Shown here: positions 1-57,461 of the stretch, piece by piece
How positions within the stretch are numbered: the first letter of the stretch is position 1
Layout: every line of letters starts with the position of its first letter
Assembly (NCBI GenBank): GCA_015832175.1
Contig: WJXW01000008.1
Coordinates: 868,001 to 932,000, forward strand
Reading direction: 5' to 3'
Origin: Paraphaeosphaeria minitans
Taxonomy: Eukaryota; Ascomycota; Dothideomycetes; Pleosporales; Didymosphaeriaceae
DNA length: 64,000 nucleotides
The notes under the pieces: generated by a model
What the model saw: only the letters and a program-made list of their open reading frames with translations
What the model was told of the DNA's origin: nothing
Databases searched by the model: none
Position numbers and translations under genes: made by a program

Positions 1-43
1 GATTGTCAACTTTGGGATACGCATGAATATCATTTGGTCTTAC

Positions 44-1528
44 CCAGTACAGCTGTATTCCCTCCTTCCACGCCTGCTTCTCCGTCAATCTCAGCGCTGA
101 GGTCTAAAATTGTCGGTGTTATCGAATAGCGCAAGTCTTGGGATTGGTATTCCACTGCCCCAGGGATGCATTTCTTCAAGACGAAGATTTGACGACCATA
201 CGTGTTGCTGCTGTCAATATCTCTGAGGCGTTCTAAAAATTTGTCGGCCCACCTCTCCTGTTCTGGAGACGTCTCAATTAGATGGATGGGAACGGTATAT
301 AGTTACACTCACCTGGCGTTTCCAAGAACCAAGTAAGTGCTACTCTTCTAACTCGGACAGATTTGTCTTTGTGTGCTTCGAGTAGGTGTCGTATGTGCAG
401 CAAGTGTGCGGCAACTCCTATTCCGCTTGCTAGTAAGAGGACTTTGTCGTACTGACCTAGTGACTGAACCCGCCCGTACGGGCCGTCAACCATGGCTGAA
501 TGGGTCGTCACGGTCGGAAGTGCAAAAATTGCATTACTGAAGCCCTTGTTTCGTTCCACAAGGATGATGATATCCTGCCCGTCGATCCAAGCGATAACGT
601 AAGGATGAGACTGTATCAGCCCGAGGGTGTGTAAAGAGAGTCTTGGAAGCGTTATGTATATATACTGCCCAGGCCCTAGGTCCCATTTTCTCTCGAATTT
701 GAGCTCAATCGCCATAGCCTCTGGTGAATTGGGAGTCAACGCATTGAACTTTTCAATACTAACGATGGGAGTAGATCGTGAACCAGGTGTTTGATGGATC
801 AGTCTAATGAGCCAGATCACGTGCTGTAACAACCAGGCAGCCGATGCTACACCCAGACATACCGAGGCGCGAGTGGAAGAACGTCGAACATGGAACCATA
901 ACACAACGGCCAAGGCTAGGGCAAATAGTAGGTGCGTTTTGAGGAAAACCTCGTACATGTATCTTCGGAGATGCAGGAATGATAGACATCCTAGGGCGAC
1001 TACTAAAGAGAGCAGCTGTTCATGTTAGCTAGAGCTTTTCGATGAACAAATACGTACTATTGTCTCTACAATGGAGGCTCGTGACGTTGCGGCGTTTAGG
1101 AATCCATGAACCAATCCTTGGACTACACATATGCGGCCTATCCACCGGTGTAGGAGGGCGTACTCATTGAGCTGGAGACGAAAGATCCTATCCGCTATAT
1201 AGTTTGTTCGACCGCCGAGATACAGCGGGATAACATTGATGATGAACAGCGTTCCGCATCTTTTGGCGATTTCTGCTGGATTTGGAACCCATAGAGTGCA
1301 TGCTGTGACATTTGCAGCGCCAAACAACAATAGGTTCAAACCAGCCAACACACTAATATCGGAGGAGGTGCGTAAACGTCGCATGACTAACGCGTACAGG
1401 AGCCGTTTGCGGATGAACAATACAATCGCGGTCCGCGTAGATCTATCGATCAGCCGCCAAATCGTCCAGATGAACAAGACGATTACTGCCGATGCGAATG
1501 AAAGAGCATAAATGGATAGTAGGTGCAT
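44..1528 (-). CDS. Ferric reductase-like transmembrane protein (FRE), 3' end beyond window
   Basis: Plasma-membrane flavocytochrome that would reduce extracellular ferric iron with NADPH electrons. Exons read 1528-1058, 1015-313 and 262-44; the introns (42 and 50 bp) keep frame, and a third GT at position 43 suggests continuation past the left edge. The start is the first Met before a hydrophobic helix. Visible are several TM segments, the bis-heme histidine pattern (HRWIGR, QGLVHG, FLKTHLL, LWFHV), an FAD-binding stretch (GPGQYIYITLP then HPYVIAW) and an NAD-binding glycine motif (ASGIGVAAH). The distal NAD-binding end is missing. The MADS-like gene is divergent, 395 bp away. FRE is a recurrent Starship cargo family. 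Family assignment is secure; exact substrate is inferred. Confidence 0.85.
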
Positions 1529-1923
1529 TGTGCGTGCAGTAGCGTTCGAGAAGCAGAGAAACGTCGTAGTTAGCCAGCTCGAATGGGTATTAATCTGAAG
1601 CGAAAGATTACCACCGCAGGTACGCGTAATGAAACTGAAAACCGAATCTCCACTTCTACAATACGTCCTCATAAGCGTCATATTTCGAATGTCGTTTCTG
1701 AAAACTGTTGAGCCCGCGCCGCCTCAGCCCACACAAGACCTTAGCACCAGATCTGCCCAAGACGGCACACTAGCGCGGCAATAACGAAGTGCGGCGTGGA
1801 GGCTCCTTTGGGTGTGCTCTTGAATTTGGGAATCAGCTTTCGCATTTTATAAGGAGACACGGGTGAGCTCTTCCACAGTATCAACCGCAAATTCGTCTTC
1901 TCCAGTCTCACACCCGTATCACA

Positions 1924-2902
1924 ATGTCCGCAACTTCCGCTGCCGCAAAGATGCAACAATTCTTCAAACGGCGCAGTGATGGCATAAACGTCAAAGCCAA
2001 AGCAATGGTACTGCAGAACCAGGACGTGAAGGTCGCCATCTTCTACTCCCACGGCGATGAGTTCTCGGTCTTCCGTTCGCATCCACACCTGCCGAATTGG
2101 CCTTTCCCTCAGCATCTCCTCGTAGGATCCACGCATTCGAGCTCCATGGCATGCACTGACAACCTGATAGGGAAGTACTCCAATCCACGAAACGAGCATG
2201 GAGAACTACCCTACCAAACCGCAACATATGATGTGGATGGCCGAATGGCTTAGGCGCGAAGGACTGTCGATGCCATGGTCGCAGTCTGCTCAGCCGGTTG
2301 TTCCAGAAGCAAGTGGAGCCTTCGAGGGGAATGCAACAGAAGATGCTGCAAACGAACACCTGGCAATAGAGGAGTCTAAAGGCTTGCTTGAGAGGACGGC
2401 CGCAGCCTACGACCAGGAGCCAGCATTGTCTGAATTTGACATCATAGGTCCCGAATGGTTCGGGATCCAACATGGTCAATCGCCAAAGGCGGCTCCACCT
2501 CCATCTCGACAGACACCTACCGCACCTGTGTCAGAAGTCCCGGTAGAATCAGATGATGATCTCACTGATGACGACTTTATCAACCTTGGTTCCGAAAATC
2601 GGCACAGAGGTGGAGGTTCCGATCCAAGTTCCATCTCTCCGCTGAAGCGCCCACGTCACAACGACGGGCACTACATTCGTTCAGCTGGGCCAGCACCCAT
2701 GAATCGTCCCCCGTTCGTGCCACTCAACAGGAAGATCAAGAACGCTCCTCGTCGTGCACGCTCAGCCTATAATCTTCATCCACAGGGCGGGATCCAATTG
2801 CACGACAACCACGGGGATCCTTTCTACCGTACAGCAACGGAGATATATGGTAGCCCTCCACTTACCAGGACCAGGGCAGCGCGCGCAAACCTTGGTAGAT
2901 AG
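1924..2902 (+). CDS. Degenerate MADS-box-like protein
   Basis: Exons 1924-2121 and 2171-2902 give 309 residues; the 49-bp intron has a CTGAC branch site just before TAG and joins the frames. Residues about 10-50 (FFKRRSDGINVKAKAMVL, then VKVAIFYSHGDEFSVFRS) follow the MADS pattern F.KRR.G...KA..L...V.V.IF......, including the basic KRR and the later hydrophobic strand. Several normally invariant positions differ, so DNA binding is uncertain. The rest is acidic and low-complexity (SDDDLTDDDF) with a basic Pro/Arg-rich end. It lies between FRE (divergent) and DUF3723 (convergent, 135 bp apart). It could be a regulator of the neighbours, but that is inference; it may instead be an orphan protein that only resembles MADS. 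Confidence 0.6.
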
Positions 2903-3037
2903 CGCTTTGGCGGACTTCATGCTTCACAGATAGTTGAATTCTCTTACGTATACAATGTATTGTTTTCTTGAAAGGCTTGCTATGCACTAGCAAAAAATGT
3001 TTAAAGAAGCTAACGTTGCACTTCTTCGCCATTAAGA

Positions 3038-6000
3038 CTATCGTTTGGAACTTGCAAGGTGTACAGCTCCAAGTTTCCTTTTTGGGCTCGAAACCGACAG
3101 GAGCTGGTCCAATGTACTTCTCTCTCCAATGAAACAAATACCGCTCTTTCCACAGTTGGCTCTTAGGCTATCTGCGTCGAAGGTGTTGACGGGCTCCATG
3201 AGGTGCTTAGGGGCGGAGACATTTTCGGTGGTTGGCGTCATTACACAGCCTTTGAGTTCTTCAGGAATCGAGGCAATGAAATTGTTGGCTTCCGCAGTGC
3301 GAATCCAGTATTGAACAACGCGAAAGCCGTCGTTTATGTAGACGTGAATTATACTGAGGTAACCGGGATCGTTATTGGAGAGGTTAAGAATGCGCTGCGC
3401 CGTTCTGTATCTTTCGTGTACAACTTGCTTCGCAAAGCGGTCACGCGCCCATTCTACACGGCCTTTCCAGGCGTTGGCTTCTTGATACGTGTAGGAATTG
3501 CGAGCTTTGATCTCCAACATACTATGTGGGAGCCGATCACATTTGAAAAGATGATCATAATGAAATATCGACGTTCGCTCGGCAGTTCCTGCTGCGTAAC
3601 GGCCAGAGGATTCAGTCTCGGAATTGTTAGACTGCCTGAGATCCGCAATTTCAGCGTCCTTAGCTGATAACCGTTCAACCATCTCCGCTATTACTGAATC
3701 TTTCTCATGCATCTGTTGTTGAAGGTCGGTGCGTACGATGTCCTTGCTTGCTATCGTTTCCGACGGTTCCGCGATCGCCTGGGTTCCGCCCGCGAAGTCG
3801 GTTTCTAGAATGGCAATCCTCCCGTCCCTGAGCTGGCTATTCAGTTCCGCGTGCTTCAGTACCTCAGCTTCTAATCTTGCGATTTGTGCATCCTTCTCTT
3901 CTAGCTGTGAACTTGCTTCTAAAGGTGCCGTTGTCTGTTGATGAAGAATTCTTTGTAACTCAGCAATCATCTCTTGCTTCTCAAGCAAGTTTTGCTTTTC
4001 ACTATCTACCTGCACCTGTAATGCGTGGTTTTCATTCGAGAGTTCGACTACTCGTCTTTGTGTTCCTTCGTGGTCTTTACTCATCTCTTCAAGACGGCGT
4101 TGTGTTATCTGTAGATTACGACGAAGCTCCATCACTTCCGTTTCTGAAGCGCGGATAGGCTGTGTCGCAGATCTGCCGCACAAACGCTCAGAATCGAAGG
4201 TCAATGTTTCTAGCCTAGGGCTCATTTCGACTGTGTCCTGTAACTCATGAACATGTACCCGGCTCTCAAGTGGAAGACTTACTTTGCCAAAGAATGCGTA
4301 TAGGAAGTCCCGTTTCACATAGAGAGAAGTCACATCAACATCTTCGTGTCCTTCATCTACCGTCTGCCAGAGCAGAGGCAAGAAAAGATGCTCCTTATCT
4401 TCTTCGTGATCATCATAGTATGGTCGACCGCACCTTCTGCTTGGGGGGTAGCGAGGCCGGCCAGTCAAGTTGCCCCTCTTCACGATCCTTGGCATCTCTT
4501 CCATACTATTCAGCACGGCTACGATCCGCTCAATGTGCGCCTCATGGTCTGTGTTTAGACATGGCTGAATGGTCTGCAAAAGGCCGCGCACTTGCGTTCT
4601 ATCGGAATCTTGGTCTTTGAGTCTACGAATCTCTTCTGTGTCGAAACCGAGTCTCCAAGCCAGGGTAGCGAGCCTGTACCAAGATGCCTGATTGTACCGG
4701 TATAGCTTTTCGGCCTTTCGTTTTCGCGAGCCGAGTCTTGGTGTCATCTCGGTCATCGCAGGAAAGTTCCTAAGACAGAACATCCATAATTGGACATACC
4801 CTAGCTTTCGCGCCCACCCATTGGTGGTCTCCTGTAGGGGTGACGTATGCACATGGTGCTCCGACGTCTGAACCAAGAATGAAGTGCGACTGAAGTGTCT
4901 AGCACCAAAGCCCTCTTCCAGGGAGCGTTTCGGCTCACACGTTCCTAGAAGCTTCCTGAGGATCCAACTGCAGGGCTCCAAGTATTTCTGGTTCTCGAAA
5001 AAAGCTCTAAGAGACGGTATGACGCATTTTGTCCGCTTGAATATCTCGATGGCTTGGGTTCGCTCGGCATCGCTTGCTGCTGAAAGTATCTCGCTGTTCT
5101 GGGTAATTTCTCGCAAGTCCGCCTTGGACACACCTGGTGCGCGTAGCTCAAGACCTCTGACCGTTGCATTGTCGACATACGATGCGGTACTTCCAATCTG
5201 ACTCCATACGTCCAAGATATGGTTAAGGTAGTTCAAGAGTTCCTTTCAAGAGTAAGCGTTAGCGCAAAACTCAAATACACAGCTCAACACTGACCTCCGG
5301 GCATCTAAGGCAATGAAAGCGGTGAAGTGTGCCTAATTGAATAGGGTCCCACATCCCACTGAAGTCGAGTAGCCGGTCGAATGATTCTGTCAGCTCCCGA
5401 TTTTTCAATAGCTGACGCAAATCCTTCTGCTTGGTAGCAGTCAATCTTGCCCACCACATTCTTTCTTTATCATACAAGTTCCCACGATGAGCCAGGCGTA
5501 TGTTCCTGAAGATATATCCATCAGAGTAGCTTTGCTCGTGGGTAAAGGCAGCTTGCGTATAAGAGCTAAGGTCTTGTCGCTCATGGAATCCTGGATATTG
5601 TAAGCATGTTGTAGGTAACTGCGTACTCGTACCCGCACACCTTCTTGTGAAAATAACCGGACGATCCACCAGCGATCATTGAACGGGAGATATTTTTTGG
5701 CTGCGGAGATCCGGTGCAATCCATTCTGACACTCTACCAAATGGTGCAGTTGAAGCTTTCGGACGTCGCTAGCATGCTGGAAACCGGAAGCATCAGCAGG
5801 GGAAATTGCCTCTTGGAAGACCTGAAGAGGGATAGTCGCATCGATGAAATTTTCGACTTCGTAACGTTTGCACCCTTCAAGTCGGAAAACCCGCAGTAAT
5901 CGTGCTGTTGCTTTGTGTGATTCCTCTCGATGGTTTTCGCGCATGGACTCGTTGAAGCTCAATTGCGAAAATTGAATACGAGCGAATCCCAAAAAACACT

Positions 6001-6046
6001 TCGACTTGAAGATGGTCACTTCAGGACTTTCCTTCATTTGTTCCAT
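3038..6046 (-). CDS. DUF3723 family protein with coiled coil
   Basis: Three exons (6046-5641, 5590-5295, 5242-3038) give 968 residues. Introns of 50 and 52 bp have good donors and keep frame; the second junction restores the family motif LRCPEELLNYLNHI. The DUF3723 region spans about residues 15-400: ARIQFSQLSF, LRVFRLEGCKRY, QNGLHRISAA, YSDGYIFRNIR, ERMWWARLTATKQKDLRQLL. A long heptad-rich coiled coil follows (about 600-780), then a C-terminal DUF3723-type tail (EARNSYTYQE-like segment) and a basic end. Molecular function is unknown. DUF3723 genes are named accessory genes of Starship elements. It is head-to-head with the phospholipase across 327 bp. No break in frame, so probably intact. 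Confidence 0.82.
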
Positions 6047-6373
6047 TGTGCTTCCGTACTGCCAAAAAAAAGTCCTATTGCGATCAACCGCGTCATCTGC
6101 GCATACATGCCACGGCTCACATTTCGTGAGTAGCTATCACGGAACCTTCCTAACCTGATCCCGTTAGATCAGCACAGACCTCCAGCGGTATGACCAAAGT
6201 CGTGCAGAATCGGAAAACCAAATACCAAATTGGGTACTGGAAGCACCAACTTCGACTCTTCATATTTGGCATCGGATTCTAAACCATCCTGATCGCGGAC
6301 CATGCGATATAGGGGAGTGCGTGGAAGCACGAAGATGGCGCTTTCCCTACCTTCACCCCTCACATACTGGTAA
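6047..6373. promoter_or_regulatory. Shared divergent promoter interval, DUF3723 / phospholipase
   Basis: These 327 bp separate two outward-facing start codons, so both core promoters should lie here. No clear TATA box or repeated operator was seen. Position is the only evidence. Confidence 0.3.
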
Positions 6374-9300
6374 ATGTCTACCTATCCCTGGATCAGTATC
6401 TCTCAAGAGGACGAAGTCTTCAAGCTGTGGTCTCATAAAACCTTACTATGTGACCTAGGCCCTGGTCAAGCTCACGCAAGCGTCAGCCTGCCAATGATAA
6501 CCTTCATTGGAACAATAAAGAAGTCGATTATTCTGTCTCGGATACTCGGCTATTCTCGAACTCTGCAACCCCATGGTCAGGTGCACTTAGCACGTCCAAG
6601 ACTCACTGAGAATTTCAATTCCGAGATCTACATCGATTGTGAGCTTGGCGCAGAGATCCCATGCGCCCGCCCTCAATCGCCGGCGTGCACATCGCAAGCA
6701 ATAGTAGAGTCTGACTCTGCTCTAAATATCGGATATAGCCTTATCTCGAACGTTCTCGCGCCCTTATCGGACGTTGTTTGCTACTTTGCTGCCGACCTTC
6801 GCGGCATCCCTGGGATCTGTAGCATATTGGCGTACCAAGCGGTCCAGGCAAAGGCTCACAATCTGCCTGTGCGTGCTTTACCCTTTGCGCTAGTTGTTGT
6901 GGAAACGACGCGTGCATCACACTTTAATCACGAGAAGGTCCAGCGCAAGCTTTACAACATGGTTTTAGAAGAGATGAATCGGCTCAAGAAATACGCGAAC
7001 CGAGATCTAATCGAGCTAGATCTGAAGTCTCGATATCGCGACATCTGTGTTTTTGGGATTCGTAGAGACGGCCCTCTGTCAAGTCATGCGCAAACTCTTC
7101 AGCAGCGTATCATGTCTCTTAGCAATGACGTTCATGTGGGTCGAACATTCTCACGGTACCTGTTCAGCTTGAAACACATGGAAACGCTCGCGGCGCGTTT
7201 AGTACAGCGATTCTGTATGAGACAATCAAGCTTCAACTTCATAAGAGCGACGAGGCCGAATGATTTCGATTGTAAGGACACTTCCTTGCATCTCGAGGAA
7301 CTGCTCGGAATGATGCCAAACCAATCATGGATCTGGTCCGTCGGAGTACCTCTCTTTGCTTCAACTATCTTTCTACCAAATTACCCTCCCGAAGCTCATG
7401 GTAGGTGCTTTTGACATGTTTTCAACATCTACTAATTCTATCAGCCTTTCTACCAGAAGACATTTATGAGGAGTTCTACGCTGGCCAGTGCAGGAAAGCG
7501 ATCGCGAGATTCATCAAAGATGCAGACGACCAAGTGCGTTTTGTTGACCGGGTAAAGCATCGATTAAAAGAACATCATCAGAAATACGAGGATGATCCGT
7601 ACGTGAACAGCGCCATCAATCAGCATACCGAGACACTGGAGTCTTTGTGGCCACATCTCTCGAAATTGAAAAGCTTTCAGTCCTGTCTGAGCTGTTTGTC
7701 CATCGGACCAGAGAAAGTGTTCGAGTGCGGTCACGCCATATGCAACGTCTGTGTCCGAAGGCTTGGTCAGCGCTCAACGCTTTCGCGGCACTCTTTCCTA
7801 CTGCCAGAATGCAAGCTTTGTGGTCGGCTGCAGTCAAGCGAGAAGAACACCTTTGATCTTGTCCCACCGTCAGCAGGCTTACGAGTGCTGTCGATCGATG
7901 GTGGGGGCGTACGAGGTGTTATACCACTCGTTCATCTTGATCACATAGATAAGGAGATGCAGATCCTCGGCAGCCCTGTCCGAGATTGCTTCGACTACGT
8001 TTGCGGTACTTCTGCCGGTGAGTGCTCGACTTCGCCATCATTTGTTGATAATCACTAAATGGCATATAGGCGGACTGGTCACTATTGGAGTCTTCCTGAT
8101 GCAGTGGACTCCGAGTGACTGCCTCGTGCGATTCGAGGATATCGCCGCGACGACATTCAAATCCGGTCACGACAAGACGTTCTCCCTATCACGGAAACTC
8201 CACAGTTTACTTCGTACCTTTCTGCGAGATCACCGCTACAACCTTTCGCCAATTGAGAGAGCTTTCGGGACAGGCTTCGAGACCGCAATGAAGATGTTCA
8301 ATCCGCTTCGGGTAGACACCAAGGTTGCTGTTACGGCTACAACAGTTGGGGGAAACATACCTTGTATACATTCCAATTACAATGGACCAAGATCAGATGA
8401 AAATAGTAAGTCAATCGATAGATCGTAACACGAAGCAGTGCTGATTAGCAGACTACCAACATGTTCGGGCTGACACTTTTGGTCATGATATATCTATTTC
8501 TGATGCGTGAGTGAGAGACTCTTCATACTCCTCCAGTACTGACTTTAGGCTCAAGTGCAGCTTGTACTTCAGCGGCGCCATATTACTTCAAATCCAAGGA
8601 TGTGCTTGGTCTCGACACTTACCAAGACGGCGGACTAACGCACAACAATCCCGCATTGATAGCGGCATGGGAATGCGCGCGGATATGGCCAGAAAAAGGT
8701 CGGATTTTCGAAACGGATAAGTGCCGCATCGATCACCTGATCTCCCTGGGAACGGGAACCTCCCCCTCAAATCGCTATACGGTTGGTCCGCATTCCCCAA
8801 AAAAAGACAGATTCATGCATCGGCTTGCAAGTTGGGCATCAGGGTCTTTGGACTCCGAGGTACTCTGGAATAGATTTTTGAACTGCATTCCTGAATCGTA
8901 CCGTTCTCGCTGTCTTCGTCTCAATCTACACTTCCCAGGTCCCGAACCAGCGCTCAACGACGTAGACTCGATTAGCAGATTAAAGGAACAGACCGAAGAC
9001 GCGATTTGCTTAGATTGGCGTGTTGCACAAGCAAAAGATTTCATCATTGCAGGGGCTTTCTATTTCGAACTCGACGATTTTTCCCGCGTGGAAGGAGGTG
9101 GATACCAATGCTCTGGTAACATTTTTTGCAGGTTGCCGTTAAATTTAGAGGGCCGTAAGACCTTCTATGCAACCTTGCAAGATAATTCGACTACCTTCAC
9201 TATCCGGGGCCGCGCAGTTGCGATCGTAGACAGTGCGCCTCATGGGAGTCCCCCTTTTCGTTTGATGTTCAATTTTGTTGTGCAAAGCATGGAGGACGAG

Positions 9301-9486
9301 AAAGACCAGTTGGATATTTCTGTGCAGGGGATCACGAGTCGACCCATGCTGATTAGTGGCATGCCGATGAGCTTAGGCACCCTAATTCGAGCGCAGGGCT
9401 TTGACGCACCTTTTGGATGCAGTGACGGACGTATGGATAGGCCACTCCCAGCCATTCCCTCAAAACGAAAATTGCATGGGTTCTGA
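6374..9486 (+). CDS. Patatin-like phospholipase (PLP) with RING-like insert
   Basis: Acyl hydrolase using a Ser-Asp dyad. Exons 6374-7400, 7445-8017, 8070-8405, 8452-8506 and 8556-9486 give 973 residues. The oxyanion motif DGGGVRG lies near residue 495, the nucleophile elbow GTSAG near 531 (codon split by an intron), and the catalytic DGG with GLTHNNP near 686. A C3HC4-like Cys/His cluster (CLSC, FECGHAICNVC, CKLC) sits at about 422-467 just before the patatin fold. The first 340 residues match nothing I recognise. The last intron uses a CAAG acceptor because only it restores ATSAAPYYF-like continuity. PLP is a classic Starship cargo family. All catalytic residues are present, so probably active. 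Confidence 0.85.
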
Positions 9487-9961
9487 TTCAATATATCGAG
9501 ACCAATCTGGAATTCATAATACATGTCCGAGACGTCCTTCACATTGATGTAATTGGATAGGGATACCTGATTCGGAATGATCATATCCCTGCGTTCACAT
9601 GGGATCTTACATCACTAAACTATTCCGGCTATAAGTCAGTACTTTCCAGTCGGATCATGCTGGAAACTGAATTCGCTTGGCTTTCAAGGATAGGCTATGG
9701 AAAACCATTCTTTTGCAGGCAATCGTGTTCATTCATGGCATGACTGTCACCAAGTGCGACGCATGATTGATTTCGTTTACAATAAAGACTAATAATACCC
9801 TGATTCATTTGAATAACGATTGGTTTATTGACCCTTCCTGAACGGAGGCTGCTTGTGACACGAACATTGCCGGTCCTAAGCCTCAAGACTGTGAAGGCTG
9901 ACAACATCTTCTGATACGTACCTATTACGAAGTTCCAGCCATACCCTACCCGCTTAATATT
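9487..9961. other. Convergent 3' spacer, nothing recognised
   Basis: Lies between the phospholipase stop and the stop of the minus-strand membrane protein. Only short, uninterpretable reading frames are present. Confidence 0.5.
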
Positions 9962-10837
9962 TTATTGGATTGAGAACTCTGCGCCTAATGTTTCCCACGC
10001 AGGATAGGCTGACACATAACAGCTGGTACATAAGGACTGCCTGCCATCGTCAGAATCTCTGGCAAGTTGCAGCTTAGTACCTACAAAGAAGACACCCTCA
10101 CGGGGATGGCTCTTGACCTCGCAACCCGAAAACAGCAGAGTACATAAAATAGTACTTCCCACCGAGTGACAAAGGATTGTAATCGCTTGCGTAGATATGA
10201 TTGCAATCAAATTGAACAAGTACCGTTGATGTTGTAGCAGCTTTTTATGTTTATAAAAGCGCCAGAGTGAGAAAACTACGGACAGGAGAGGTGATATTGC
10301 GAGAAATGGAAGAACCAAAGACTCGTGTATGATATAGAAATTTTGCTGCCTATTAATGGTCAATAGCCACAGAATTCTGAGTCCGAGATGATTACCTTAT
10401 ATAGAGGTAGAGACCGGCGACGGTCGAGACAATGACCGCACCATATGACGTCCGTACAATCCACTGTGGGAGGCTTAAAAGAGACGAGACGCGAGCATAC
10501 TATCTGTCGCGTAAGAGACTATCACTACCATGCGACAAAGTTATCTTACCATCGTGATGGTATGAAACTGGATGATGCAAAGAGTGACGAAGCCTAGCCA
10601 TGTGGTTCGGTAATTGTTGTGAAGTTGTATCCCAACGGCCACTAACCCAGCTGCAAACAGACATGCTTGACAAGAGTATGAATATATGTCCAGGCTTCTA
10701 TCAAAAGTGGAAGGCGCCAGCGTCCAGTCCGAGTCGTTCGATCGGATAGGCCTTACAAGGTCGAATATCAACCACAAGCTGAGCAGGAACCCAGTAGCGA
10801 AAGCGACAAGAAAGAGCACGGGAAGCAATTGCGACAT
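9962..10837 (-). CDS. Small multi-pass membrane protein, unknown
   Basis: Exons 10837-10550, 10463-10396 and 10349-9962 give 247 residues. The middle exon of 68 bp is recovered because its frame reads as one continuous hydrophobic helix (GAVIVSTVAGLYLYIR). The chosen start is the Met directly before the first TM segment (MSQLLPVLFLVAFATG); an in-frame Met 32 codons upstream is less likely. About five to six TM helices are visible, with a soluble Cys-containing tail. No family was recognised. It is convergent with the phospholipase and divergent from the next gene. Its intron layout resembles the multi-TM gene at 40960, but sequences do not clearly match. Confidence 0.6.
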
Positions 10838-11766
10838 CTTTGGAGAATTATAGAGAAATCTAATGGGAGCCGGTCCCCTTATATAGCAGAAACGAGCTTG
10901 CCAATCTGCCTGACCCTCCACATGAGCTGTCAAATAAGGACCATCACCGAAACACCAAAAGCGCCCTTATACAAGACGTATGAGATTCGATATCTATATT
11001 TCACAGCATGGTTCCGGTGAGATTAAAGTGCTGAGAGCCTAGTGTTCCATCATTACAAAAGTTCGTAACTGGAGCGGTTACAGTCAAAAGTTCATCTACA
11101 GGAGTAGCACTACTGCTGTCTCCGAGACAGTACTAGAGCACGTTCGACGCTGGACCATCTGAGATTCTGAGCCTCCTGAGTGGCATCCTTGCAAAGAAAG
11201 ATGCCATTGGCTCATTGTCAACGGGGTGTGGCAAAATATTAAGAAGAGGTTGTTAGAGTTTTTAGGGCTCATCTTTTCAAGGTCTCCTCTTATTTAATTC
11301 CTTACCATATTCCCTATATGGTTTACCTAATCAAGCAGGAGATAACAGCGCCCTATTCTTGAGAACAACTTTGTAGCCGCCGCCCCGCTCTTCAGCTGCT
11401 AGTGTCGTATGCCTCAATCCAAGCGCGTAAAGGTTTGATTCGGTTGTTCCGACGGCGCCCCTGAAGACAATGGACCGCTATCGGAAAGCGTTGCCTTTGA
11501 ACATCAGGTGGTGCCCTCGAGGCTGTGTGCTGCGGAAGTTAGCCCGAAAGTGGGACACATACGCTTCACACTCATTGCCACGTCGGGTCCTAGACGTAAC
11601 GCAGTATTGTAATCCAAACCGACGCTGCGGTGGAACGTCATGTGATGCATGGAATTCCAGTATATAAGACATAGCCACGACGCTCATAAAAATAGATCTG
11701 CATCTTCTGCTGAGCTGTCCGACGAACACCTTCTTATAATCACATTCGCCCATCCTACAGCTCATA
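10838..11766. other. Divergent intergenic region
   Basis: 929 bp between two outward-facing starts. No supported gene. It includes a TATA box near the right end, listed separately. Confidence 0.5.
11661..11668 (+). promoter_or_regulatory. TATA box
   Basis: TATATAAG about 105 bp upstream of the ATG at 11767, a normal fungal distance; supports that small gene being real. Confidence 0.45.
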
Positions 11767-12378
11767 ATGTCTGTATACTACGATCTCCCATCTCCCATTG
11801 TGAATATCAGCGACCTCAAACGCTACAAAAAAGTCCTCGAAGAATGGGAGGACACGTATCCGACAGGTTGCATTTCTGACGATCGTGTTGAATCACTGAA
11901 ATTTCTTGTGTTCAATCTATTCGAGTGTGCGGAGCGGGGAATGTGCCCTCCTTCACCAACTATAGTCGATTCTGATCCAGAGGTATGCATATAGATAGGT
12001 GCTAATGTCCCACACTGCGACGCGAATCACACAGGGTAAAGAACCACTTTCCACCTTTGAAAGTCTAACATCGATGCACGATAGAAACACATTGCTATTA
12101 ACTGTAGAATAGTTTCCCATGGCCGTTTCTCTGTCTCCACATAGATCTGCAACATGGATTACCGTAGCGTTGGTATCGCTATCGACCGATTCGTCAACGC
12201 CCTTCAGGGTTGTTTTGGTTTCCCACCCTGGTTGCCCTGCGTATTTCCAATTAAGATTCCATTTCGGAGGCACTGGACCCAAGGCAAGTCGAGAAAGATC
12301 CTACTGCAGTCGTTGAGCGAGGATTTCAAGCTGAATGCTGCCGTTCCGAGAGTTTCTCCGATCTTGCAGGCTGCGTGA
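11767..12378 (+). CDS. Hypothetical 149-residue protein
   Basis: Exons 11767-11982 and 12145-12378, joined in phase 0 by a 162-bp intron (GTATGC donor, ACATAG acceptor), longer than the other introns here, so a missed micro-exon is possible. The product is soluble with no recognised domain. The N-terminal half is acidic and helical (SDLKRYKKVLEEWEDTYPTG) and the C-terminal part is basic (KIPFRRHWTQGKSRK). It is convergent with the NLR 345 bp downstream. No function can be stated. Confidence 0.4.
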
Positions 12379-12722
12379 TTTTTGCTAGCTGTATTTTATC
12401 CTGAGCTAGCACCAACTTAGATTTCCTTACAAATAGATACCAGATGGAACTACTCCAGATCGAGTGTAAATAGAGAGCCCATGCCCTTCAGGTGTCTTCT
12501 GTTAGTTGATCATTGTAACCGAATGGAGGACTTCCGAAGCCCCATGTTGCACAATAGACTTGCTTAGCACGTGAATTAAGGAGATTGTACATGGTATAGA
12601 TATTTGTAATTAGACAATGATTACGATATCCGTGTCTCCGATGTATTGCGCTTAACCATATCAGCACGTGAGCTGACCGTAACATACACGCTGCTTCAAA
12701 AAGTGATAAGAAGCTTAATTAG
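12379..12722. other. Convergent 3' spacer, nothing recognised
   Basis: Spacer between the small hypothetical gene and the NLR stop; no supported feature. Confidence 0.4.
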
Positions 12723-15700
12723 TTATAACACAGACAGGTTGAGAAGCGTTACGCGACCTGAAGAATGCCCTAAGCAAGCGACGCCTCGATGGATTGCAGA
12801 GCAGGTCGGCCGGTACCCGGGAGGAAGCCAGAGCAGCGGCTGTTGATCTAGAGAGATCCACTGATCCTCTATTAAAATATGGGACGCTTCCGAAACTGAA
12901 ATCAACGACGATGGCTTCGTAGGAGAAGGAAGAGGAATTTCACCTCGATCCGTCTGGATACATTGTCCATCTGGCGAGAAGGCCATCGCGTTAACTGAGT
13001 CAGAATGGCCCTCAAGCGTGCTGTGGTGCGCCCCTGTCTTTGCCTCCCACAGACGCACTGTTCCGTCGTAAGAGGCAGACGCAATTAGCCTCCCATCTGG
13101 CGAGAAGGCTACTGCGTTAACTGAGTCAGAGTGGCCCTCAAGCGTGATGTGGTGCGCCCCTGTCTCTGCCTCCCACAGCTGCACTATTCCGTCGTCAGAG
13201 GCAGACGCAAGCAGCTTCCCGTCCGGCGAGAAGGCTACCGCGTTAATTGAGCTCGAGTGGCCCCTAAGCGTACTGCGGTGCGCCCCTGTCTTTGTCTCCC
13301 ACAGCCGCACTGTATTGTCGTAAGAGGCAGACGCAACTAGCTCCCCGTCTGGCGAGAAGGCTAGTGCGCTAACTGCGTCAGAGTGGCACTTAAGCGCGCT
13401 TTGGTGCGTCCCTATTTCTGCTACCCACAGCCGCACTGTATTGTCAGTTGAGGCAGACGCGACCAGCTTCCCGTCCGGCGAGAAGGTTACTGCGTTGACG
13501 TAGTTAGAGTGGCCCTCAAGCGTGCTGCGACACGCGTCCCAATACGTTTCTCTCTTAGACACCTTAATGTTTTGAGGGGCTAGGTTCTCGAAAGTTCGGC
13601 GTATCAAACTTTTCTCTGGTGCGAACGTCAGTGCAGAGTAATAAACTTGCAATGGAACAACTTCTACAATAGGCTGGAACCGTAGTACGAATTCCTTAGC
13701 ATCTCGGAGAAAACTAATAACAGCGGTTGCTGATGGCTATAATGCACGTTAGTACAACACTAATTTATTTCATTAGTACAGATCTTACAGTTACAAGACT
13801 CCTAAGCCTATCAATCAAGTCAAAACATCGGCTTAACTCTCTCATAAGACTCAAAGCTTCGAGCCAATGTAGCAGATGCTCCTGGAGAAATCGGTGTATC
13901 GCATCTCTGTCAGCTATCTCTTGATGGCTTTGCTCAAGATGACTGACCCAGTAACGACACGCATACTGTAGCTCACGTGCCAAGTTACTGGTGACCATCC
14001 CGTCATCTGTCTCACTCCTCATGACCCTAGGTCCTGACAGGCTGCAGATATTCTTGCATAGGCCACCTGGCTTAGACATAAGCTCAAGACAGTAAAACGC
14101 AAGACTTTTGTGCGCCTCAGGCGCATCTACCCAGAATTGGTGCTTCTTCTGTCTTTGGCAATCGACAAGAAAGTCGCGGAAAGACAAATGAAGCAATCTA
14201 ACAGGAACGTCCTTATTGTCGGGAACATTAAGCACAGAGTGCAAAGCGTCTAAACGACACTCTACCTCTATCTGCGGGACTTGCAGGAGGCGTGCAAGCG
14301 AGGCAAGGGAGAGCGGGCTCTCCAGAACAACAATTCTGCCCACAATTTCCCGAAACGCCTGGAGCCAAGCTTCCTTCTCATCCTCTTCCTGTTCGACAAG
14401 CAGCTGCTCTAGGATAGGAAGATAGGTTCGATCAAGCTGTGAGAAGGTCGACTTTTTATACTCGAGCACCTTTCTTAGGTATCCTTCCGGGTGGCCTCCT
14501 TTTGTGCCGATGTATCGGCACACAGTGGCAGCAAAAATGAATAGCGGCACGGCTTGCTCGACCAGGGCGTGGATCTGATCACCTGTCGGCCAGTCCGGAG
14601 ACAGCATGCGCGCTCGGCGTATTACACTAAGCTCATGCTCGTAGAAGAGACGTATATCGTGTTCAACGGTGTTCTTTGCAACTTCATGAAGGACAAGGTC
14701 TTGGTACGTCCTGTTCGGCATCTCTTGAAAGCCAAGACGAATATGGAGCTCTTGCCTACTTGTTACCAAGACTCGTAATGATACCGACTGCATGCCTTGG
14801 CCTGAGTGAGGAGCTTGAGTATGACTCGGACGTCGTTCTCTCTCTCACATTCGTCTAACGCATCTATGACAATTACGCGTGTAGTAGTAGCTGAATGTGT
14901 TTGCTGCATCCCTAAAAGCGGATGGAGTATAAGTTTCTCGAATTGATCCTTCAATGCCTTGTGTGGCAAGGCCGGGTCTTCGTCAAGAGCTTTCTTGATA
15001 TTGGGTAACATGCCCGGTTCGCAGGCAACCAGGTCAATAGCGATGGTGCTGAAGAAGCGGGAGGCGTTGCCGCGCTCGCCCTCGCCCTTCCTAAAAAAGA
15101 AGCTTGCCCCAAGCTGACCGTTTTTGTTGAAAGAATGGGCAGCAGTCCGTGCGATTGTGGACTTTCCTGTGCCGGCCATACCGCACAACCAGAATATGGG
15201 TTTACTATCCTTATTGTTCGCCCAATTCGCAATGGTCTTTAGTAGATCGGTGCGGGTGTTTAGCAAACACCGTGCGTTGTGCTCGTCGGCGTGCGAATCG
15301 AACGAAGCGCCTATTGCAACAGGTAGTTTCGTTAGGTCTAGCTGCTCGCTTATATCAGTCACGAGGATCCTGTATAATTAGTGAGACGCTATACTTGCGG
15401 ACGGCAGCTCTGGGTGTGGAAGCTTACGTCTGATCGACTTGGAGCGCAAGGCTAAAAGTGTGCCCATACTTCTCGAGGTTCTGAACTGTCTTCTCCACCC
15501 CCTTGCTCGTCAATGGCCATTTCAAGGCTCGTAGACAGAATCGCTGCATTGCTTTACGGCGCCCACTAGGCTCAAGATTGGTTTGGAGAGTAGCCTCGAG
15601 CTCTTTTAACTCCTGCAAACATCTTTGGAGCGGGTCTAGCAATGTGTTTGTAGTAGGGAGCTGCGACTTGCCCCGCTTGTCCAGAAGCTGTTGGAGCTTT

Positions 15701-15858
15701 TTGAGTATACCTTTGGTATCGTCAACCTTTTGGTGGAGGCGCTCGATGTCGCCCTTTGCGCGCCTGACCTCGGCCAAGTACTGCAGGCAGAGCGACGCGA
15801 CTTTAGCAGATATGTCAACGACGGCTATCACGCTTGCTGCTCCCGAAAGGCCGTCCAT
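12723..15858 (-). pseudogene. NLR (STAND): fungal N-domain, NACHT, WD40; one-base frameshift
   Basis: Intracellular NOD-like receptor of the HET-E/HNWD type, a class involved in fungal allorecognition. Exons 15858-15428, 15369-13789 and 13736-12723 (introns 58 and 52 bp). Residues 1-143 match the fungal STAND N-terminal domain. The NACHT module has Walker A GMAGTGKST near 207 and Walker B VIVIDALDEC near 309. At about 14792 the frame ends 18 codons later, while the expected LRVLVTSRQEL continues in another frame; the pattern fits loss of one base. The C-terminus carries four to five WD40 units and a tail (PPGYRPTC, LGHSSGRVTLLNL) typical of complete family members. NLRs are a named Starship cargo family. 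As read it is broken; a sequencing error is the alternative. Confidence 0.85.
12975..13530 (-). repeat. 126-bp WD40-coding tandem repeats
   Basis: Four to five tandem copies of a 42-codon WD40 unit (core FSPDG, LVASASYDNTVRLW, GHSDSVNA). Copies are very alike at the DNA level, as in fungal NLRs whose repeats are shuffled by recombination and under diversifying selection. Variable positions cluster at the binding-face residues between units. Confidence 0.8.
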
Positions 15859-17439
15859 AATGCGGCGCGCCGTCAGGTTTGCGGACGACGCAGGTTTACG
15901 AGACGGCGGGGCCGCTTTGTGGTGGTGGAAGATGTTGCCGCCTATGCTAAGTACGGCGAGGCTGAACGCTGGGAAGGCAGCTGCGGCTAAATGCTGGACG
16001 CGGGAGGCGAATGTCGAAGTGGGCGCTTAACAGCAACCCCGCCATGATCTGGACGAGAGCAGTACGTTTCAATAATAACATTAGGAAATTTGCTGTGCTA
16101 GAACTACGCTTTCTTTATCATTCATTTGTTTTGAGGCTTTACGTGGTCAATCGATAATGTCCACTTTTCTGTGCCTGTTGAGGATAGGTATAGGGTCCTT
16201 GGAAATCTCCTTTAGTAGTTGTCTCTCGTTGACGATCAAAAGTGCATCCAGCCTTTCTCACGGTTGGTCCGGCAGAAGTCTGTATGATACATGACAGGGT
16301 GATTCATGCACAAGCTTTCAGCCGTCTGAGCGTACGTGGAGTGCCCCACGCACAGTCCGTGGCCTGATAAGCCAAGCACATTCGAGCAATTTTGACCAAT
16401 ATTGCTCACAAGCGCTACTGAATGCGGTCTTCAACCCAATTACCCTGCAAATGCTCTGTCGCTGGCGAACCGTGACTAATTGCGTAGGAAATGAGCAGTG
16501 TGAGGCATAACGCATTTACAATGGCATGGCTCCGGATTCCTCGGCGCAATGGTTGCATCGGTTCTGATTGAGCCCACCGATCGGTTTGATAAATTAGTAC
16601 GACCGTGTCTGTATTGAAATCCCCGTCTAGCCATTCTGGCCGGGCGGTAGACGTCACATCACATCCGCTTTGACAAATGCCACACATCCAGAATGCGACT
16701 ATAGTCTAATTATACGCACGGTCCGGTATGCAATGTAAATGCGGGGACCCAAACTGTGATAACTTCCGATCATCCCAACTTATCTGAAAGAAAGTTTGTC
16801 TGCCAATAACGGTTACAAGATTCATCACCAGGAGCTTCAGCGCAAATGGAAAGAAGCCCCAGCGCTGATAAGAACAGGCTTGTGCGGCCCAGATGGCAAG
16901 TCATTTCAAAAGACCAGGGGAGGTGCAATGACTTCCAATCACGCGCGGAGGCTCCTCCGTTCGTTGGAAGTGGACTTGAAATACGTGCCACACTCACCCG
17001 AATGTGTTGAAGCTCTACGTGAAGCCAACTGTGGCGGGTGTGTCCCGCCCCTGGCCAAGTCTAGACCGACCATTCGCAACCATCGAAACTAATCAAGCAA
17101 GCGTCCTATACCCTAGTAAAAGCACCCCGTGCTCGCCTGCCCACGGAATTAAATTGAGCGCTTCAGCGGCATGCCGTTCCACTTCGCGTAGCCCCTTTTG
17201 TAATTAGGAAGTAGGCCTGAAATGCGCAGGGTATAATCCACTAACGTATCATGGCCAATGCAGACAAGCGCTCGAGATTGAATCGTTTGGATCAGCTGTA
17301 CGGCCTCTAGAGTGACATTGGTCGAGTCCTAGACTCTTGCTCCCTCAGCTGTGGCTGCAAGAGCAGACGCGGCAATCGTACGGTCTAGTACCATGTAGAA
17401 TGGCTTCATGTCAACATTATAGCAGTGATCACGATTCAA
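15859..17439. other. Gene-poor interval upstream of NLR
   Basis: About 1.6 kb containing the presumed NLR promoter at its left end. Several short frames exist (for example minus 16415-16687, 90 codons) but none shows a domain, a splice partner or a convincing start. Confidence 0.4.
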
Positions 17440-18759
17440 TTACATCTGATAGTATTTACAGTGACTCACAAGATGGTGGTATTCTGCACCATCCTCTGCA
17501 CCATCCTCCAGGGTGAAACACTCGCTCTCTGCAAGGGTGAAGTATGCTTTTTCAGCCTCTGATCCGACAAAGTCTTCAGTTGGAATTGATCCCCGCTCGC
17601 TATACATCTCTGCTAAGGCATCATGCATCTGTCTTTCCTCGGAATCTGGATGGAGAACTTGGTGGGCGTTGTTTTTGTTTGAGCTCAATCTGCGGTTGAT
17701 TTGATATTCACTGTAACGTCTGTAGGGAAAATTCCGGGCAAGTTCTTCGCAGGCGACTTGTAGAACTTCATCGCGAGGACATCTCTTTCTGCATTGAAAA
17801 AGAATCGTGTCGGCCGGTGGGTCCCACCCCTCCACTTCTTCCACGTCCAGAATGTGTTCGCTCCTAATCAGCGGGTGATCTGATGGCACTTGTTCTGAAG
17901 TTTCGATCCATAGTGTGTGGAATCCTTTCTCTTCTCTATAGTGGAAAAAAACGTTTAGTGTTTCCATATGCGTCAGTTGTTCCGAGGCGATCGCGTCCTC
18001 ATTCAACATGCCGTCGTTTGGATATGAATAACAGCCCAACAAGGTTCCTTTCTTGAGAGGCTCCCTTGCTCTGAATCTCCCGTCAAAGTATATCAGCGGC
18101 CTATCATTTGAGATTTTGGGTGAACCTGAACCAGTGGAAGCTACGGTGGCCCTGTAATATAATTAGAAGCGTGTTACCTAAGGCCGTTGCCAAGGACCTT
18201 ACGCGTAGGTAGAGCTCCGCTCTGTTATGCGTTTCAGTGCTTCAAGTGTACATCTTAACGCTTCGATTAGGGCGTTTATATGGCGTTCTGAAGACACTTC
18301 GGCGGCGATCCTGAAGAGTTTCGCGACATCTGACGCCATGGTACTTTCGTCGCTTTTGTTTACCATTAATTCGTGCCTAATTCCGTAGATGAAGCCACGT
18401 ACGACAAGGAATTGTTGTTCGCTGAGATTGAGATACAAGTAATCTTCAGCATCGTTCCTACTCTCATTTACACAATCATTTGGTGTTGAAGTGCTGGACA
18501 GGGGGGTATGCCAGTGTGTAATGCAGCAGTAGCTTCTTATCGTGCAGTGCATCAGTGCAAGTTCGGTCCCGTAAAGGTGTTCTCCGGTATTGAGAATGAG
18601 ATCAGCAGCTTCTTCGAAGACATCGGGGACGCGAGCTATGATGTATTCCAGTAGCTCGGCGATTTCTTTCAATAAGCGTGCATCGTTCTTGTGTCGCCCT
18701 GTCAAACGCATCAGCAAGAATGCTATGTCGCGCAGCTTCGTGTTGTCGAGAGTGCTCAT
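17440..18759 (-). CDS. Myb/SANT-like protein A with helical N-domain
   Basis: Exons 18759-18203 and 18151-17440 (51-bp intron, phase 2) give 422 residues. Residues 1-185 are all-helical (LRDIAFLLMRLTG, FEEAADLILNTGEHL, ALMHCTIRSYCCI). Near residues 295-341 there is a helix-rich R/K motif (DEVLQVACEELARNFPYRRY then YQINRRL) resembling a Myb/SANT-type tri-helix. The end is acidic. A strong GTGAGT near the stop leaves room for a further exon. Protein B, transcribed away from it 151 bp to the right, has the same order of parts, similar length and the same intron phase, so the two look like paralogues. Probably a DNA-binding regulator; target unknown. Confidence 0.6.
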
Positions 18760-18910
18760 ATTTAAGTATTTCTGTTCACACCTCGAGAATCTCCCGTGGA
18801 AGGGGGTACTTCCGAAAGTCGCGTCTGACGGATGCCAAGGTGGCTCGTGCTCCTTTGGCCTTCCAGAGACTTCAACCTCTGTCTCACCTCTTCAACCCCT
18901 TGCCACAGAC

Positions 18911-20253
18911 ATGGACCCTGTGAAGGAGCTTTGCGACTTGGTCGGGAAATCTTCTTCTGTCATCGACAGCCTTGAAACCCTCCGCAAGGAACCGGACGAA
19001 TCACTTCGAGAGTTCAGCTATCTGCTCATTCACATACGCGTTCAAGCCGAACGCATTGCAACGACACAGCTATTCCATGGTACCTCACAGACCATCAAGC
19101 TGGCAACCGAACTTCTCCGAAACGCTAACATACAGCTTGCGATGCAGGCTTTGAGAACTTGCTGCTATTTTCTGAAAATAGTGCAGAGGTTCGAAGTTGA
19201 ACACAGTCAGATGAACAAGCACGATCTATTCGGACTGGTGCACGAAACACGTCACAAATTGAGTTCTTCGTTGCCAGGTACTACAAAGCTCCGATCTCTA
19301 CTTTGGGACCTGGGTAGCGAGCTGCTTCAGTTAGCGGAGCAGCCTGACCTATACAGGCATTTACGTGATCTGTTCACGGCAGGAGGAAGACTTGAGTCGA
19401 GCGAAGACATTAGAATGTTCTTAAAGATTCTACAAACCTCGGTTGTGTCGATGATGAATGGCTTGAGAGAAACGGGACATTGGTAAGTAAGACATACAGT
19501 ATGTTACATACTAGACTCCTGACACAATTCAGTGAAGCTGCGGAGTACGCAAGTAGCCATCTCACGGAAGAACGAAGCCTTTTCCAATGGATACGAATGA
19601 CCGGAGATGAGTCGATACACGAGATTTCGGGGGAACACATTTCGGAAGAACAGATTGTGGGAGATCAGTATGATGATCAGTATAATGGGGATGAAAACGA
19701 TACTCGCCGGACCCGCCAATTTCCAAGCATGTCAACCCCTACACACGAATCGGAACCCACGCCTACACATGAATCGGAACCCACTGCAATTTTCGAAACA
19801 GCAGAAGATGGTACCATAAGAAATGAAGGTATGCTAAGGCTCTATCAGAGGCACGTGTGGAGTTGTAAGGAAGATCTTGAATTGGCCCGTTGTCGGATTG
19901 CCATACCTGCCTTAAACTGGAATGAAACAGCGGTCCGGCTGAGGAAGAAATTTCCAACTTATAGTTCTAGTTACAGCTATAAAAAAGTCAAAGGGAGATG
20001 GCGTAGACTAATGCAGTTTAGCGAAAAAGATCTGAAACCAGCATTTAGACGCCTAGTCCAACAGTCAGACATGACGAAGCTGCGGTGGCGCAAGGCCGAA
20101 GATCTCGCATTGGTGCGTTTGGAGAATGTCAGACCTGCCCTTACAATCGATTGTATTGTGGACCGACTACAGGAAGAATTTTGCAATCATAGTATTCAAT
20201 TCAATGAATACTCTGTCACAAACAGATTGGATGAACTCAGAGCCGGGCGATAA
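18911..20253 (+). CDS. Myb/SANT-like protein B, paralogue of A
   Basis: Exons 18911-19482 and 19533-20253 (50-bp intron, phase 2) give 430 residues. The N-terminal 190 residues are helical (IKLATELLRNANIQLAMQAL, LRTCCYFL) and align by eye with protein A. A Ser/Thr/Glu linker has a short duplicated THESEPT motif. Two Myb/SANT-like repeats follow: about 298-350 (VWSCKEDLELARCRI ... VKGRWRRL) and 374-425 (LRWRKAEDLALVRLENVRPA ... VTNRLDEL), each with a leading Trp, ED, and a terminal R..L helix. Myb-type regulators are reported among Starship accessory genes. The head-to-head arrangement suggests a shared promoter in 18760-18910. Confidence 0.65.
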
Positions 20254-20844
20254 GCAGCGGGGCGATCGATTGGCAGGAGTTCCCGAAGGGTTGTGGACAG
20301 CTACCAATGCGAATCACACCACATGGTCCTGTCCCCGAAATGCGAATTCTTTTGCCGACGGATCCTTTACGCAGTGGGTCACTACAGATCGTGTGCTTTG
20401 GGGCAGACCACGTGAATATGACAACACTTCCGTAGTTTCCGATTAGACTAGTGACTCAACTCAAGGCATGATCGAAGCATCAACTGCTTTGGTGTTTTTT
20501 TAAAACCAGCCACCTCTGGAACTCCCGCAAATCCCCCGGTTCCTTGGATCATACGTGCAAAGCTTTGAGAACTAGGTCCTAATGGCGGTCAGCCAAAGCA
20601 TTTGAGCTCAGATTACACGTTACCAGGATACTCTCCATGATTTTCAGACGAAGATCTGTAACAGAAAGAGGCAGCTCGCTTCCAGGTCGCAGAGATTCAT
20701 CCCTTCCTACCTCAGATATGAAGACCCCTGGAATGATCCGTGCCCACCTGCATAGCAAGGTGAAGTCCCAATCGGAGGACTGTGCGCGGCAGCCCCCATC
20801 CAGTAGCCGACCGCAGTAGCGTTAAGTATGAGCTTGCCGCCCAA
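20254..20844. other. Intergenic, no supported gene
   Basis: About 590 bp between the Myb-like gene and the zinc-finger regulator; only short overlapping frames. Probably the promoter of the downstream gene. Confidence 0.4.
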
Positions 20845-21699
20845 ATGGATCGACGGGAGATTTTGCTCTGCTCTCCTCTTTTTCTCCAACATAACAAGCT
20901 ACATCAGGCAAGCAAAATCATGGAGGCTTTCCTTACCCGACCAAATTCACAGACGAAAGAATCACAAAAGAAGCACCAATGCTGGGAACATGATTGTAAT
21001 GGCCGTCCGTTTAAATCGCGTGACAGCCTTAATCGACACCTGTGTAAGAAGCATAGCATGTATGCCTGCGATCGATGCCGCCGCAGAAGGAAAATATGCA
21101 ATTCAAGGTCCACTAAACTGACCTGCTCAAGTTGTGCTACAGCGAAAGAAGATTGTGTTTTCAGCGTGGCGGAAGCTTCGGCGCCAAACCATGATTCTGG
21201 AGATTTAATCGAACCAATATTGCCTTCAACTATCGAATACATCTTTGTCCAGCCAACGCTTGGGGTACAAGCCTACACCGACAAAATCAGCACAGTCAGA
21301 CAACCTCAACTAGCGGAATCGAACGAACCTCTGGTATCATCGTGTTACCAGTCATCCGAACTCTACGCCCCCTACCAAGAGCAAAGAATGCGTGGCTACA
21401 AGATGAACGAGTGCATCGGCTCCCCAGCCAACGAACTCGCTGCGATACCGGCTATTATGCCAACCGAGGTTTTCTCTTCATACGGAATTTGTCTCATTTT
21501 AACATCGCGCAGCGATCACACGTCCACTTCCAACAGGGAAGGAACCACCTCTATTGAATATCACGACGAAGTCACCTCGGATGGCATCTCTACATGCATT
21601 GTCTCAAATTTCCCTGCAAGCGATCCATACGAGAACGCCGCTTCCGAAGAAGTTCCTTCACGTAGGTTATCGACGCTCAATGTTAACTCGGTTCCATAA
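20845..21699 (+). CDS. C2H2 plus Zn2Cys6 regulator-like protein
   Basis: Single frame of 284 residues from the first ATG; the frame is open further upstream but only with a GTG start. A C2H2 finger (CWEHDC ... SLNRHLCKKH) is followed directly by a Zn2Cys6 cluster (YACDRCRRRRKICNSRS, then CSSCATAKEDC). That C2H2/Zn2Cys6 tandem is known in some fungal transcription factors. The remainder is Ser-rich and lacks the fungal-specific middle homology region, so it is short for the family. The downstream gene repeats part of this sequence, so this may be the 5' half of a duplicated or split regulator. Confidence 0.6.
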   Translation: MDRREILLCSPLFLQHNKLHQASKIMEAFLTRPNSQTKESQKKHQCWEHDCNGRPFKSRDSLNRHLCKKHSMYACDRCRRRRKICNSRSTKLTCSSCATAKEDCVFSVAEASAPNHDSGDLIEPILPSTIEYIFVQPTLGVQAYTDKISTVRQPQLAESNEPLVSSCYQSSELYAPYQEQRMRGYKMNECIGSPANELAAIPAIMPTEVFSSYGICLILTSRSDHTSTSNREGTTSIEYHDEVTSDGISTCIVSNFPASDPYENAASEEVPSRRLSTLNVNSVP

Positions 21700-21744
21700 C
21701 AAGCAGTAGGTACAATTGAAGAGCCAATAATACCTAGCTCCGGA

Positions 21745-23660: not shown

Positions 23661-24185
23661 ATGAATCTTTACTCCAGACAGATTGCATATGCAGAACGTA
23701 AGGTGGGTGAACGCTTCAGGAAACCTCTGAGAATGGTCCTTCGCGTTTACTCATACCCTACTAGGGTTACGAAAGCCTTTGGAAACAAGACTTCAGTCTC
23801 AATAATTCACATCGCGATCACTGTAAGAAAATCGGGTTCTTTCCACGCTCGGGGGCTGACTAGACTAGATCATTACTTCGAAAAGGGTGCAAATCTCATT
23901 CCCGCGTTACACAATCGAACGGATAGGCTTGCTTTAGTAATGAACGATATTGTGAACAACCAGAAGATTGTAACTGATCCGAGGCTGAAGGAAGAATTGA
24001 GTGACATATTGGACGATATGGGGGGTTACAAAGCCATTCTGGACTCCATAGTGATGATTGAAGGGTTGACCAGGAAGCTGGAGGATGCGCAAGTTGCCCT
24101 GGGGTTCAACGACGTCGCTCCCGGTCGCGCTAATCAGGAGGAGATCAAGGTGTATCTTTATCAGAACTCCAACTATCGTTCATAA
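23661..24185 (+). CDS. Hypothetical 174-residue protein
   Basis: Uninterrupted frame with an ATG. The C-terminal half is helical and well formed (LKEELSDILDDMGGYKAILD, IEGLTRKLEDAQVALGF), while the first 80 residues are basic and irregular, so a real exon may begin further inside. No family recognised, no signal peptide or TM segment. Confidence 0.3.
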   Translation: MNLYSRQIAYAERKVGERFRKPLRMVLRVYSYPTRVTKAFGNKTSVSIIHIAITVRKSGSFHARGLTRLDHYFEKGANLIPALHNRTDRLALVMNDIVNNQKIVTDPRLKEELSDILDDMGGYKAILDSIVMIEGLTRKLEDAQVALGFNDVAPGRANQEEIKVYLYQNSNYRS

Positions 24186-52093: not shown

Positions 52094-52098
52094 AGTCT

Positions 52099-57456: not shown

Positions 57457-57461
57457 AGTCT

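Follow-up and report, generated by a model that had tools for sequence, protein, structure and literature searches.

The left end of a 64,000-nucleotide stretch of the Paraphaeosphaeria minitans genome (the window) carries genes for a ferric reductase (FRE), a DUF3723 protein, a patatin-like phospholipase (PLP) and an NLR side by side, raising the question of whether they are cargo of a Starship, one of the giant transposons of Pezizomycotina. The host is itself a member of the Pezizomycotina (Pleosporales, Didymosphaeriaceae), and the window corresponds to positions 868,001-932,000 of contig WJXW01000008.1 (C8), window base 1 being C8:868,001, in an assembly of 47.45 Mb and 30 contigs. An initial annotation, made from the window alone, had proposed that the genes are Starship cargo and had placed the missing captain, the DUF3435 tyrosine-recombinase gene of such elements, somewhere left of position 1, unless the element is degraded. 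A captain gene was found there. We put the probability at roughly 0.7 that window positions 1 to ~16,000 (perhaps to 22 kb) are cargo from the captain side of a Starship, either intact or in decay, that is led by this gene and lies beside conserved genes. The best reading of its surroundings is that the element sits in a GC-poor region, read here for ~240 kb, that has been invaded by other transposons. The inward-reading captain and the four accessory families support the core of the cargo proposal; the pair of Myb-like genes that had been counted with them was not verified.

An open captain gene reads towards the window

The captain gene occupies the interval between 18.4 and 16.0 kb left of window position 1, oriented towards the window (Table 1), which excludes the case that no captain exists within several hundred kb. 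Domains were called with Pfam profiles against Pfam's own cut-offs, given below in bits, and open reading frames (ORFs) were taken from stop to stop. Splicing of three GT-AG introns gives a stop-free protein of 744 aa that scores 97.6 bits against DUF3435 (cut-off 25.8), with a weak Phage_integrase match that stays below its cut-off. The DUF3435 region is central (residues 145-416), and cysteine-rich motifs are found near the C-terminus. R182 in the motif TGLRPGE, FRR at 345-347 within SFRRGFAN (344-351), H368 and Y377 are, we assume, placed like the corresponding residues of tyrosine recombinases. The structure model of the protein was too poor for a fold search (predicted local distance difference test, pLDDT, 36.6).

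The spliced protein is identical to the hypothetical protein PMIN04_012523 of P. minitans, and the PMIN06 annotation has the same gene in a differently spliced model on a 53-kb contig. Three relatives from outside the species were found among the 7,995 scored candidates that share most words with the captain, one of them from Westerdykella ornata, with 37-38% identity in local alignments and 39-41% in a multiple alignment.

Four accessory families lie within 16 kb

All four Starship accessory families fall inside window 1-16,026, although the patatin match is below cut-off. The ferric reductase and DUF3723 calls of the initial annotation were confirmed, the former with three domains above cut-off in window 278-1723 (Ferric_reduct 29.6 vs 28, FAD_binding_8 30.8 vs 22 and NAD_binding_6 22.3 vs 22.2 bits). 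In the PMIN03 annotation of P. minitans, a protein of 950 aa matches the DUF3723 ORF at 94% identity. A gene is likewise present where the phospholipase had been called, but its two patatin pieces in window 7,405-9,486 (+) score 25.4 and 22.1 bits, just under the cut-off of 27.7; they cover positions 1-37 and 150-190 of the 191-position profile, a pattern that would be consistent with a gene split by introns. A RING model also stays below its cut-off on this gene (17.1 vs 21 bits). The last exon has relatives of 32% and 29% identity on contig C15, beside spots matched by the Patatin model, and relatives of the gene are found on C8, C15 and C19. A second copy at C8:1,239,287-1,240,009 is 83% identical and contains an in-frame stop.

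For the NACHT-WD40 NLR, the WD40 array (199.2 vs 27 bits; 12723-13736, -) and NPHP3_N, a NACHT-type NTPase (98.5 vs 24.8 bits; 14763-16026, -), are well supported, but the NACHT model proper reaches only 22.2 bits against its cut-off of 26.7. PigL_N was matched in the same ORF as NPHP3_N (35.7 vs 27.2 bits). DNA copies of this gene, 88-92% identical, are present on C15.

Table 1. Features of the captain locus and of the second captain-led set on C15. Positions refer to the window unless a contig is given.
Feature	Position	Strand	Basis
DUF3435 tyrosine-recombinase gene (captain)	C8:849,586-851,968	+	DUF3435 profile; spliced open frame
Ferric reductase gene (FRE)	1..1723 (domains 278-1723)	-	Ferric_reduct, FAD_binding_8, NAD_binding_6; 3' end left of window
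DUF3723 gene	3038..6133	-	PF12520, 231.7 and 62.8 bits (cut-off 22)
Patatin-like phospholipase gene (PLP)	6374..9486	+	Head to head with DUF3723 gene; two patatin pieces below cut-off
NLR gene	12723..16026	-	PigL_N, NACHT-type NTPase, short WD40 array of 126-bp repeats
Gene without assigned family, one of the "Myb-like" pair	17440..18891	-	Two ORFs, no Pfam match at E 10
Gene without assigned family, other of the "Myb-like" pair	18575..20253	+	Stop-to-stop ORFs overlap those of the - strand gene
Two ORFs with one Zn2Cys6 (Zn_clus) domain each	20764..22473	+	PF00172, 22.6 and 31.2 bits (cut-off 21)
DDE_1 transposase	35.6 kb
C15 set, captain	C15:394.1-392.6 kb	-
C15 set, FRE	C15:365 kb	-
C15 set, DUF3723	C15:329-330 kb	+
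C15 set, PLP	C15:327 kb	-
C15 set, NLR	C15:323 kb	+

The accessory families cluster with captains, and a second set has the same order

Profile searches of the whole assembly, whose counts are lower bounds for every family, found DUF3435 and DUF3723 only on C8, C15, C19 and C20: all 20 DUF3435 matches are on C8, C15 and C20, and all 11 DUF3723 matches on C8, C15 and C19. The window's type of PLP is nearly as restricted (11 of 13 on C8, C15 and C19), the other two matches, on C3 and C5, being the weakest. On C15, a second set repeats the order seen at C8, captain-FRE-DUF3723-PLP-NLR. Relative to the captain, four of its five genes are oriented as at C8 and FRE differs; in each set, DUF3723 and PLP form a head-to-head pair, 220-240 bp apart by ORF limits. 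Identities between the two sets, where aligned, are 30% and 34% for PLP, 24% and 31% for DUF3723 and 28% for FRE; the captains share only ~35% identity over ~90 residues, and the NLR of the C15 set matched another C8 NLR rather than that of the window.

For chance controls, manual merging of the hits gave 9 captain, 7 DUF3723, 17 FRE, 18 PLP and 30 NLR loci. A radius of 35 kb around the C8 captain takes in all four accessory families, as does one of 71 kb around the C15 captain; both distances were picked after the data had been seen, and they apply to all of the following counts. Under uniform placement, at least one captain with all four families arose in 0 of 200,000 trials at 35 kb and in 10 of 200,000 at 71 kb, and two at 71 kb in 0 of 200,000. 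With contig membership kept, the corresponding counts were 123, 1,556 and 131 of 50,000, and for C8 alone at 35 kb the count was 3 of 200,000; in these tests the window PLP, missed by the Patatin search, was added by hand, the copy at C8:1,239 kb was left out and the length of C19 was assumed. Accessory genes are therefore clustered near captains more than expected by chance.

DUF3723 and PLP are also associated with each other. All seven DUF3723 loci have a PLP within 30 kb, as against 0 of 100,000 within-contig shuffles, and the same holds for 5 of 5 loci once two duplicated ones are dropped (6 of 100,000 shuffles), with the same caveats on a post hoc distance and the assumed length of C19. 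It is tempting, if doubtful, to regard DUF3723 and this PLP type as a conserved functional module of Starships, one that is kept or passes as a whole from one element to another even where the captains are unrelated. Two of the seven pairs, those of the C8 and C15 sets, keep the head-to-head layout despite the low identities of their proteins and captains; against a module, the remaining five pairs are separated by 17-29 kb.

Elsewhere on these contigs, C20:51,482-57,000 and C15:761,351-766,870 are 99.6% identical and hold a duplicated captain. It is a different captain, and the pair was uninformative as a guide to the edges of the window's element. DUF3435, DUF3723 and PLP genes, together with long near-identical stretches, are what C15, C19 and C20 have in common, and these contigs may be accessory chromosomes. 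Two match pairs with an offset near 146,410 were also seen on C15.

Limits of the putative element

The captain faces the cargo and has conserved genes on its far side: deoxyhypusine synthase, a USP7-like protein and Vps18 account for three of the ten ORFs scanned to its left, the other seven giving no family match. Between these genes and the captain, one further gene ends near C8:848,200; its first exon has no Pfam match, and by eye we take it to encode an HD-domain, cyanamide-hydratase-like protein. GC content is 0.552 over C8:828,001-848,200, 0.486 over 849,586-932,000 and 0.506 over 932,001-1,092,000. ORFs of at least 200 aa cover 0.70-0.93 of the three bins preceding 846 kb; of the 41 later bins (range 0-0.96), 35 reach no more than 0.64. 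TpA/ApT ratios of 0.58-0.97 across 44 bins were read as giving no sign of repeat-induced point mutation. With the captain as first gene, the 5' edge would lie between C8:848,200 and 849,586; with composition as the marker, it may be nearer C8:845,000.

Two apparent edge marks were discarded. Two short pieces at C8:848,347-848,451 match C5 and C4 and were read as dispersed fragments, and the motif GAACCAC, found close to the captain and as tandem copies around window 34,022, was not seen by eye to follow captains in any pattern.

On the right, the block at window 22,694-30,615 (8 kb) is 98% identical to C20:42,018-49,928, which stops ~4.7 kb before a C20 captain. It was considered as the element's 3' end and rejected: its left end is abrupt and recurs in a third copy, which is partial (421 bp, C8:938,373-938,793), and it splits into separately repeated pieces, so that it looks like a mosaic. 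A Copia retrotransposon at window 52,087-57,458 has been recently active, since a copy at C15:1,212,246-1,217,617 is 100% identical over 5,372 bp. Among 30 ORFs scanned from window 38 kb to C8:1,092 kb, no clear return to conserved sequence was found; the matches comprise Copia and LINE-type reverse transcriptases, ankyrin and dynamin proteins, a kinase and one each of RRM, HLH, AAA_17/HAD, DUF7770 and DUF3638/DUF6606 proteins, some of which could be conserved genes. Further along the contig, C8:1,173-1,191 kb and C8:1,352-1,370 kb share three match pairs, all offset by 178,943 bases, which suggests a segmental duplication.

Genes beyond the NLR

The paired Myb-like genes of the initial annotation could not be substantiated. 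Myb/SANT models gave no match in the four ORFs of window 17,440-20,253, even at E 10, and for the second + strand ORF there was no homologue at E 0.001 among 660 candidates and no other copy in the genome. The C-terminal part of the + strand ORF is predicted to be all-helical, with a pLDDT of 39.9 that makes the prediction unusable. The two Zn2Cys6 ORFs that follow are possibly further cargo.

Weighing the explanations

Several observations weigh against a Starship led by this captain. The 16 kb between captain and FRE contain few recognisable genes, and to the right of the cargo repeats and transposons form a patchwork. FRE and the NLR NTPase are not confined to the DUF3435- and DUF3723-bearing contigs, where only 3 of 20 (C8, C15) and 13 of 32 (C8, C15, C19) matches, respectively, are found. 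The NLR frame may be broken, as its two ORFs overlap in different frames at 14763-14844, which may reflect a small intron, a frameshift or an assembly error. GC content is below 0.5 already at ~C8:845,000 (1-kb bins), before the HD-domain-like gene and ~4 kb short of the captain, so the composition change is not exactly at the captain. Finally, a search for inverted ends preceded by a direct repeat revealed no edge, target-site duplication or terminal repeat: its 14 candidates compare with 8-13 in five shuffles, and the best score was reached or exceeded in four of the five.

One alternative is a mosaic accessory region, in which the captain is solo or belongs to a short element and FRE-DUF3723-PLP-NLR is the remnant of another, older Starship that lost its own captain. 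The captain-FRE distance, the shared repeats, the 8-kb block recurring on C20 and the fresh Copia insertion all point that way, and one report states that solo DUF3435 genes are commoner than captains (PMC12134995). We nevertheless regard a mosaic as unlikely, at about one chance in five, because the identical five-gene order recurs on C15 and because the captain has an open frame, sits on the core side and reads inwards. Considerably less probable is a fixed, non-mobile region in which the families gathered without any Starship. NLR, FRE and patatin genes do occur elsewhere in the genome, both captain and DUF3723 have relatives in other P. minitans strains, and DUF3723 relatives track host taxonomy; yet clustering with captains exceeds that in shuffles, and two captain-led sets have the same order. 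That the cargo belongs instead to one of two further captains on the same contig, at C8 ~1,009 and ~1,072 kb (85% identical to each other in DNA; ~77 and ~140 kb beyond the right end of the window), is hardly credible, as both read rightwards, away from the window.

The ranking of DUF3723 relatives bears on transfer as well. Nine proteins were found among 7,990 scored candidates sharing most words; outside the species they rank, by score, from P. sporulosa (74%) through Bimuria (59%, covering 69% of the query) and Karstenula (35%) to other Dothideomycetes. Given the placement that we assume for these hosts, the relatives follow host taxonomy, so nothing points to a recent exchange between distant hosts, and horizontal transfer of DUF3723 is not supported.

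Comparison with known Starships

We infer that the captain and its cargo form one element and that this element has moved. If so, the captain recombinase would recognise the ends of the element and cut and rejoin DNA through its active-site tyrosine, and the whole element would move with its FRE, DUF3723, PLP and NLR genes. PLP and NLR genes have been proposed to serve self/non-self recognition during transfer (PMC12506042). A search limited to the open-access literature returned no paper pairing "starship" with "paraphaeosphaeria". The finding would, if true, record a Starship whose captain appears intact from a genus unpaired with Starships in that literature and from a fungus that we take to be a mycoparasite used in biological control. 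It would also make nine DUF3435 loci on three contigs of one assembly comparable, two of them leading the same accessory order, and so help to show which accessory genes travel together.

Bipolaris sorokiniana, the host of the Starship Sanctuary, is presumably also a member of the Pleosporales. That element is 170-196 kb long, has DUF3435 as its first gene and carries FRE, NLR and PLP genes, and its captain has a tyrosine recombinase (YR) domain in the middle and a DNA-binding C-terminal part (PMC12506042). The P. minitans locus has the same three accessory families, and its captain likewise has a mid-protein DUF3435 region and, near the C-terminus, cysteine-rich motifs; Sanctuary differs in having three haplotypes with known edges and a captain ~350 bp from the edge (PMC12506042). 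Horizon of Pyrenophora tritici-repentis is a 143-kb element that has, as here, DUF3435 at its 5' end, a ferric reductase and NACHT, and for which, in its own case, target-site duplications and an empty target site were demonstrated (PMC9594970). The likeness of the P. minitans locus to the Starship superfamily thus lies in the inward-reading DUF3435 captain at one side, the FRE, DUF3723, PLP and NLR genes and the host group, rather than in edges, direct repeats, length, mobility or captain family. Starships as a kind are already known, and this locus looks like a new example of them.

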